A DNA stretch of 34,667 bases from the NCBI GenBank assembly GCA_024709845.1, contig JANJVX010000243.1:1-34667 (forward strand), read 5' to 3'. The position numbers and the translations under genes are program-made. The stretch comes from Burkholderiaceae bacterium. Its GTDB lineage: Bacteria; Pseudomonadota; Gammaproteobacteria; Burkholderiales; Burkholderiaceae_C. The notes under the pieces were generated by a model. That model made no database searches. It was given only the letters and a program-made list of their open reading frames with translations, and was not told where the DNA came from. Position 1 is the first letter of the stretch, and each line of letters begins with the position of its first letter. Shown here piece by piece: positions 31,832 to 34,667 of the stretch.

Positions 31832-34667
31832 TCAACCCCGCCAGGCCATACCGTCCTGCGTCTGCACCGCCTGCGCACGGCCCAGGGCTTCCAGCGTTTG
31901 CAGCAGGGTGGGCAGGCCCTTCTTCCAGGGGCCACGGCCTTTGAAGCGGGCTTCGAGGGCGCTCAGGCTGAGCGGCACGGGGCTGGCGGCCAGCGCAGCG
32001 GCCACGGCGCGCACCTGTTCGGGGAGCTGGGGGGGCCAGGGGTGCTGGGCGGGTTTGGTTTGCTCTTGTTTTGATAGCGATTTGTCACTATCAAAATCGG
32101 CCTCTGGCGCTTGTTCCTCTTGCGCAAGCAGCTCCTGTTTTTGCACTGAATTTTGCGGGTTTTGAAACGCGGGCCGCAGCCAGCGCACGCGGCCCTGGGC
32201 TTCCTCAAGGGCGCGCTGGGTGTTGAGCTGCACCAGGTGGGCCAGGATGTCGTCGGTGCTGGCCGTGGCGCTCAAGCCGTAGGCTGCCAGCACGGCAGCG
32301 TCCAGTTCGTCGTGCAGCTCGCGCAGCACGCCCACCAGGCCCTGGGCATGCTGGATTTTCTCTTTGGCGGTGAGTGCGCGGCCTTCGCGCAGGGCCGCCA
32401 GCACGTTGTAAATGCCGGTGAGGGTGAGGCCGGTGTTGCCGGATTCGGGCGCCAGCACGCGCTTGCGGTGCTGGTCGATCTGCTCGGCGAGGTGGGCGAT
32501 GCGTTCGCGGAGTTGCGGGGTCAGGCCGGTGTCTTCGTCGGGGAAGGGGAATTTTTCAAAGCAATCGCTGTGGTTGTAGGTGGAGTCGTTTCCGACGCCC
32601 AGCCAGCCACCGGTCTGATTGGCAAAGGTGACGTGTGTTGACGATTGAAGGACTCCCAGCGCAAAAGCATCAGCTAATGCGACGATCAATACTTTGGTTT
32701 CGGGGAGTGACGTGGCTTCCGTGAGTTGAAAAATTCGGTGTCGTGCGGTGCGTGAAGTGACGATGAACCCCGTGAGACCTTCAAGTGCAGCGCGAAATTT
32801 CGAGCGCGTCTCGGCATGTCTCCACCATTGAAGCCGATAGGATTCGCGCGGATTGAGGTCCCTATCCGGCTTGACTCGGTCGAACAGCCATTGATAGACG
32901 CTGGGGTGTTGGTCGCGGAGGGTGACGCCATCAAAACCAAAGGTGTCGATCACATACTGCTCACGCATGGATTGCATGAGGTCTCTGCCGGTGAAATAGC
33001 GCTTGACCAACGCAGCGCTGCCTGCCGAGCGCATCGTTTCTGCTTCTATCGGTGTGAGGATGAACCCTTGCCCTGATAGCTGAACCCCGGGGCAAGCCAA
33101 TCCTTTATTGCCTTGCAATGTTTTCAAGTTGGCGATATCGGCGCCCACTGTCAAATCTGCATGCATCAGTCCAGTGGTTTGGGTCAGCGTCACGGTTGCT
33201 TCGCCGTGTTCACCGGGCTGCTCGTTTGTCACGGTGAGCAGTTGCCCTTCGTTGCTGCCTGCTGCCAGCACGGTCATGGCAATCCGCACGGCGGCGCCGT
33301 TCCCGCTGTCCACCCACGGGTGGTCGGCAATCGCCATTTCCAGGTGCGTGCCCTTGTCCAAAGCGGCTTGCACCACGCGGCGGTTGAACACCATGGTCAG
33401 GCTGTTGGTGGTGATCAGGCCCATGCGCCGGGTGTGACCAGCGGCCACCTGCGCGGCGGCGTGGTGCCACCAGAACATCACAAAGTCCGCGCTCTCAGGA
33501 ATCTCGGGCCAGGCGCCGCGCAGCGCTTGCACGTAGCCGTCGCCTAGCGCATCGCGCATTCGCTTGTTTCCAATGAACGGCGGATTCCCCACAATGAAAT
33601 CCGCCTGCGGCCACTGTGCCTGCCGGGCGCCCACGTAGCGCCATTGCGGCACCTGGGCGGCTTCGTCGGGCACCTGTGCGCCCGTCACAGGGTGGGTTTT
33701 GAAGGTGCGGCCGTCCCAGCGGCTGAGCAATTGGCCGTGGGTGTCGTAAGCCACTTCCTGCGCGTCCCAGGCCAGCACGGCGTCGCGGCATTCGATGTTG
33801 CCGTAGTTGTGCACCACGGGTTCGGCCACGCTGGCGGCGCCCCGGGTGCGGATGTGCCATTGCAGGTAGCCAATCCACAGCACCAGTTCGGCCAGGGCGG
33901 CGGCGCGTTCGTTCAGCTCGATGCCGCGCAGTTGCTGCAGCGTCACCGTTTCGCCTTCAAAGCCGAGCTGGTCTTGCGTGTGGCCGAGTGCTTCCAGCTG
34001 GTTGACGACTTCGCCCTCCAGGCGCTTGAGGTGTTCCAGCGTCACGTACAAAAAGTTGGCGCTGACGCAGGCTGGGTCGAGCACGCGGGTGGTGCACAGC
34101 TGGTGGTGGAATTTTTTGACCTCGGCGCGGGCCTCGGCCAGTTTGGCCTCTGCGGCCTTGCCTTGCAGCGTTGCGGCCTCGTGCGCCAACACGAGCGCTG
34201 AAGCCTGGGCGTCGGACCAGGCTGCGCGCAGGGGCTCGATCACGGTGGGCAGCACCAGGCGCTCCACATAGGCGCGGGGCGTGTAGTGGGCGCCCAGGGC
34301 ATGGCGCTCGGTGGGGTTGAGAGCGCGTTCGAGCAGGGTACCGAAGATGGCGGGCTCCACCTCGCGCCAGTTGCATTGGGCGGCGGCAATCAGCAAATCG
34401 ACCTGCTCGGGGGTGAGCAGCAGGCTGTAGCCGTCTTCGCCTGTGCCTTTGAAGAGCTTGCCGTTGAAGTGCAGCACGGGCTTGGCCAGTGCGGCGCTGA
34501 AGCCGCCCCGATCCATGTCGGCCCACAGGATGCGCAGCATCTGCTGCAGCGTGGCGGGGTCGTTGCGGTGGGTTTGCAACAGGCCCAGAAAGGCGCCTTT
34601 GGGCAGCAGTTCCACGTCTTCGGCAAACATGCTGAACAGACAGCGGGTGAGGTAGGCTGCTACTGTT
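31832..34667 (-). CDS. MmeI/DrmMI-like class I DNA methyltransferase, 5' end outside window
   Basis: The frame runs off the right edge. The codons before ATG 34630 read [12 protein letters not shown], the usual lead-in to [11 protein letters not shown] in this family, so the protein starts further upstream. About 944 residues are visible. These are large adenine-specific methyltransferases, either fused to a nuclease (MmeI, type IIL) or working in DISARM (DrmMI). Visible parts are a helical spacer, the methyltransferase core with motif [12 protein letters not shown], the family block [12 protein letters not shown], the target-recognition region (about 32560-33190, of visibly lower GC) and a C-terminal helical tail. 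Motif I reads DPACVSANF where the family has DPACGSGNF, so SAM binding may be lost. A dispersed repeat encodes part of the tail. Whether a nuclease domain precedes it cannot be seen. Confidence 0.85.
32069..32134. repeat. Dispersed Comamonadaceae-type repeat, copy D (inside the methyltransferase gene)
   Basis: TTTTGATAG (32069-32077) and CTATCAAAA (32088-32096) form a perfect 9-bp dyad. They are followed by tcggcctctggcgctt and ttgcgcaagcagct, the other blocks of the family. On the minus strand it is translated as [18 protein letters not shown] within the C-terminal tail, keeping the frame. Confidence 0.75.

Follow-up and report, generated by a model that had tools for sequence, protein, structure and literature searches.

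Organization of the locus

The window, i.e. the whole stretch of DNA analysed in this study, is 34667 bases long and constitutes the entire contig C230 of a draft genome of 302 contigs, with a completeness of 79% and a contamination of 4.2%. Analysis of the window revealed a restriction-methylation (RM) gene on the minus strand that runs off one contig end. The features of this gene are listed in Table 1. The start of the contig (window 1-141) lies inside an alaS-like gene, and its 141 bases are identical to the end of contig C231. A number of cyclic-di-GMP and sensor genes occupy window 1140-26133. Among them are genes for an HD-GYP type HD-domain protein and for three GGDEF proteins, as well as one frame of 1471 residues in which PAS, histidine kinase, receiver and Hpt domains are combined. 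A second copy of the RM gene was found in its own genome neither by protein search (E 0.001) nor by DNA search, where the 44 matches were the window itself and others of 16-54 bases.

Table 1. Features of the RM gene in the window, with positions on contig C230
Feature	Position	Strand	Basis
Type IIL (MmeI-like) restriction-methylation fusion gene	31832..34666	-	Open frame, 944 aa present, 5' end truncated by contig end
MmeI helical spacer domain, residues 2-72	34451..34663	-	Pfam PF20465 (MmeI_hel), E 7.2e-14
MmeI DNA-methyltransferase domain, residues 178-464	33275..34135	-	Pfam PF20473 (MmeI_Mtase), E 1.8e-29
Motif I DPACVSANF, residues 197-205	34052..34078	-	Direct reading of the frame; aligns with DPACGCGNF of MmeI 5hr4
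Val201 codon, the motif's only unique residue	34064..34066	-	Gly in 107/107 listed relatives
Ala203 codon, normal for the clade	34058..34060	-	Ala in 30/107 listed relatives
Motif IV NPPF, residues 361-364, intact	33575..33586	-	Read in frame and aligned with relatives; coordinates derived from residue numbers
Target recognition domain, residues 532-710, weak	32537..33073	-	PF20466 E 2.2e-4, 21.1 bits, below curated cut-off 27

The match to the target recognition domain is weak in the window protein; in the relative L083 the same profile reached 40.7 bits, above the cut-off of 27. PADLOC matched the window protein to REase_MTase_IIG (PDLC03627) with 1116.3 bits, the match starting at profile position 231 and continuing onward. 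By its domain matches, the window protein is an MmeI-like Type IIG/IIL restriction-methylation fusion. An intact enzyme of the MmeI family binds its site, methylates one adenine with S-adenosylmethionine (SAM) and cuts unmethylated DNA some distance off. The sole solved relative by sequence is MmeI (PDB 5hr4).

Motif I of the methyltransferase

A total of 109 listed relatives were used for the analysis: the best 80 of 93, plus the 29 top places from a second search in which some match occurred in 101 of 299 genomes, own genome included. Of the 109, 107 had a readable motif I, L014 and L081 starting downstream of it; three of the 107 are near-duplicates of others. The 107 relatives showed four forms of the motif: DPACGSGNF (75), DPACGSANF (30), DPACGTGNF (1) and DPAGGTGNF (1). 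The gamma-class motif I with a first glycine (DPACGxGxF), a feature of type IIL enzymes, is absent from the window protein, which carries DPACVSANF in its place.

The motif I sequence and the intact motif IV given in the preliminary description were both recovered. That description had also held that both glycines of motif I were lost and that two changes argue against a sequencing error. Alanine at the third position is present in 14 of the 15 listed relatives with at least 70% identity (GSA) and is thus normal in the clade; only the valine departs. The two-change argument falls for motif I for the same reason. The further statement that both glycines touch the SAM ribose was left unconfirmed: motif I is located at the AdoMet site in PMC4833311, the available part of which lists no such contacts.

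The Val form was present in one of 399 family genomes, namely the own genome, and the Gly form in 114 of 399. Recurrence of VSA in the clade, which alignment with family members might have revealed, was found neither in the 107 listed relatives nor in the 398 other family genomes or the viral contigs. Viral contigs contained no stretch related to the RM gene; plasmid-borne relatives exist, with identity up to 62%. The Val201 codon is one base away from the commonest codon of the relatives. A published test of a Gly-to-Val change at this position was not found in a limited literature search, and the available part of PMC3036652 contains no motif I mutant.

Alternatively, the methyltransferase could be active, its cofactor pocket being altered so that valine is accommodated or another cofactor used. 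This would agree with the open window frame, the intact motif IV and the fact that the third position of motif I does vary within the family. The first position, however, is glycine in all 107 listed relatives and in MmeI, and the stop codon upstream of the window part, described below, makes a full-length enzyme unlikely. We consider continued activity of this kind highly improbable.

The probable N-terminal part and the nuclease motif

Comparison with the seven nearest listed relatives not truncated by a contig end (sequences shorter than 850 aa left out) revealed 248-323 extra in-frame N-terminal residues, measured from stop to stop. When the N-terminus of L083 was searched against the own genome, one strong place was obtained, C186:3432-4139, which reaches the end of this 4139-base contig; a third place, on C155, was weak (E 0.007). 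By homology, C230 resumes the protein one residue after the end of C186. We infer that C186 and C230 carry parts of one gene. No sequence overlap exists between the two contigs at the gene break, as against the exact overlap of 141 bases at the other end of C230, and the break is therefore probably a coverage gap. Since the contigs do not overlap and the draft is both incomplete and contaminated to the extent given above, C186 might also derive from a related strain.

On C186 the nuclease motif reads RIDC-stop-RRGHFVLEAQK, with a stop between the catalytic aspartic acid and glutamic acid and glutamine instead of the catalytic lysine. Among 90 listed relatives, the lysine position is occupied by lysine in all 90, the stop position by tyrosine in 89 (one gap), the catalytic aspartic acid position by aspartic acid in 89 (one gap) and the catalytic glutamic acid position by glutamic acid in 89 (one arginine). 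Thus, for the PD-(D/E)XK nuclease feature, D and E are present on C186 and K is replaced by Q. The stop and glutamine codons are each one base from a codon present in relatives, as counted in the 57 of 109 listed relatives that fitted the search pattern, the remaining 52 being excluded. The piece after the stop matches PF20464 (E 1.7e-7), and its frame is open up to the end of C186. As read, the nuclease appears to have lost its lysine, with the frame broken within the active site. In MmeI, substitution of D70, E80 or K82 by alanine abolishes endonuclease activity, according to the part of PMC4833311 available. The open frame reported in the preliminary description holds for the window part and fails for the N-terminal part on C186, which has an in-frame stop.

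These open stretches bear on another reading, namely that translation restarts after the stop and that the dead enzyme has been retained as a sequence-specific DNA-binding protein that neither cuts nor marks DNA. The frame is open from the stop to the end of C186 and for 944 aa in the window, and motif IV, the spacer and the C-terminal parts appear constrained. Recent loss explains this constraint equally well, however, and valine and glutamine occur in none of the listed relatives, which leaves no hint of selection for the dead form across a clade. Such retention is given very little weight here.

Two frames immediately precede the N-terminal part of the RM gene on C186 (L112, 848-1458). One resembles MazE/AbrB antitoxins (E 2.6e-5; 24.5 bits, slightly below the cut-off of 24.7), and the other belongs to the Fic/DOC family (E 2.3e-17). 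L101 and L103 carry relatives of both frames upstream of the RM gene; in L082 and L015 a match there was obtained for the antitoxin only.

Unusual residues: error or decay

A departure was defined as a residue that differs where the other sequences agree, and departures were counted per sequence, leaving out the three near-duplicates and sequences with short overlap. Compared with all listed relatives, the N-terminal part departs at two of 17 invariant positions (the stop and the glutamine); among the 90 listed relatives, 80 showed no departure at these positions, eight showed one and two showed three. The rest of the gene departs at two of 123 invariant positions, Val201 and Gln674, of which Gln674, in the target recognition part, may be harmless. 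Of the 96 sequences compared at these 123 positions, window protein included, 68 had no departure, 20 had one and eight had two or more. The highest number, six departures at otherwise invariant positions, was found in L070, the relative with glycine in place of the motif I cysteine (DPAGGTGNF).

When only near sequences were compared (n = 34), the window gene departed at four of 295 positions, with six or seven departures in three other sequences and four in a further three. Among near N-termini (n = 27), the C186 part departed at two of 78, and six of the 27 relatives also had at least two departures. The number of departures is therefore ordinary by the standard of near relatives, and the argument depends on the nature of the positions affected: a stop, a catalytic lysine and the motif I glycine.

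It is possible, and in our judgement unlikely though to be taken seriously, that the enzyme is in reality intact and that low coverage or strain mixing gave wrong consensus bases. The gene is divided between two contig ends without overlap, suggesting a coverage gap, and the draft is fragmented and incomplete (302 contigs, 79% complete). Each of the three lesions differs by a single base from codons of relatives and, taken singly, could be an error. Against this stands the low number of unique departures in three other, conserved genes on C230 (1/139, 0/88 and 0/150), which suggests that errors are not widespread on the contig; this comparison used the best 29 relatives for each gene, with 80 genomes searched, and is shallower than that for the RM gene. 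Departures are also not concentrated near the contig ends: among residues 1-204 of the window protein, one of 51 invariant positions departs (Val201), and from the second lesion to the end of C186 none of nine does, or none of 44 when 27 near relatives are compared. Three errors in the catalytic motifs of one gene would also be a coincidence, although, because the invariant positions are mostly catalytic, the test is in part bound to find lesions in catalytic motifs. Since the protein otherwise appears constrained, the loss is either very recent or false.

Probable inactivation of the fusion gene

Overall, our analysis suggests that the RM gene is probably a recently inactivated Type IIL fusion, struck in both catalytic centres. 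The fusion would comprise a PD-(D/E)XK nuclease, a helical spacer, a gamma-class N6-adenine methyltransferase and a target recognition domain. The first glycine of motif I, present in every sampled relative, is replaced by valine, which should upset the SAM-binding loop, and the stop early in the nuclease makes a full-length protein unexpected. Should translation restart, the product would have no working nuclease and would carry valine in the SAM-binding loop; neither activity would be expected of it. We infer from these sequences that the three changes are real mutations that would abolish activity. The earlier claim that motif I of the methyltransferase is damaged, and the enzyme probably inactive, finds good support here.

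In RM.BpuSI, a Type IIG enzyme, a mutant in the NPPY motif (not motif I) that had lost SAM binding lost both methylation and cleavage, as described in the part of PMC3817140 available. By analogy, this mutant suggests that failure to bind SAM might by itself suffice to abolish both methylation and cleavage. Because two defining catalytic features, the motif I glycine and the D/E/K set of the nuclease, are incomplete here, the gene is not considered to encode an intact Type IIL enzyme. The preliminary description had proposed a DNA-binding-only role or the use of another cofactor; the stop and the lost lysine in the nuclease favour simple gene decay over both.

Loss of restriction-modification genes is well known. 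A stop or frameshift was flagged in 10 of the 109 listed relatives, or in eight of the 91 not truncated by a contig end; the census was counted from inside the gene, and about eight of the 10 flagged relatives are clear. Of those flagged, L071 has its stop within the final 13 residues; in L081, which is a fragment, the stop comes after a few residues. Decay of this sort therefore seems ordinary for the RM gene. Another decayed copy, L101, adjoins the same kind of antitoxin/Fic module; it has two stop codons, a partly unmatched N-terminal region, NPLF at motif IV and an upstream Fic frame that is 83% identical.

The RM gene thus appears to be an inactivated descendant of a known family and offers no grounds for expecting a new cofactor chemistry. 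It would illustrate the loss of both activities by an RM fusion and, if the reading is true, provide a data point on the loss of single-chain restriction-methylation enzymes. It also carries a caution, as a dead gene may resemble an intact enzyme with one odd motif when a window ends part-way through it.

Comparison with known systems

DrmMI of DISARM and PglX of BREX gave weaker PADLOC matches, mostly to the methyltransferase region. Membership in DISARM or BREX was rejected on the PADLOC score (195.9 bits for DrmMI compared with 1116.3 for Type IIG). Partner genes of these systems were not named by Pfam in the 20 window frames, one flank of the gene lying beyond the contig end.

The decayed relative L101 (genome G226) belongs to the same gene family and shares with the RM gene the presence of stop codons and of Fic and antitoxin frames upstream. 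It differs in having other lesions, including NPLF, and in keeping the motif I glycine.

Comparison with MmeI (PDB 5hr4, PMC4833311) revealed the spacer, methyltransferase and target recognition parts in the same order in both proteins, the last of these a below-cut-off match in the window protein, and the motif IV NPPF, the LGAHYT stretch and DPAC..NF align. MmeI has DPACGCGNF and, according to the available part of that report, an intact D...EXK nuclease, whereas the gene described here has valine and alanine in motif I, a stop in the nuclease and glutamine for lysine. The Burkholderiales members of REase_MTase_IIG include L002, L082 and L083, which are about 80% identical to the window protein and belong to the same family over the entire available length. 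These three differ from it in possessing a nuclease motif with lysine and no stop inside, and in reading DPACGSANF at motif I.
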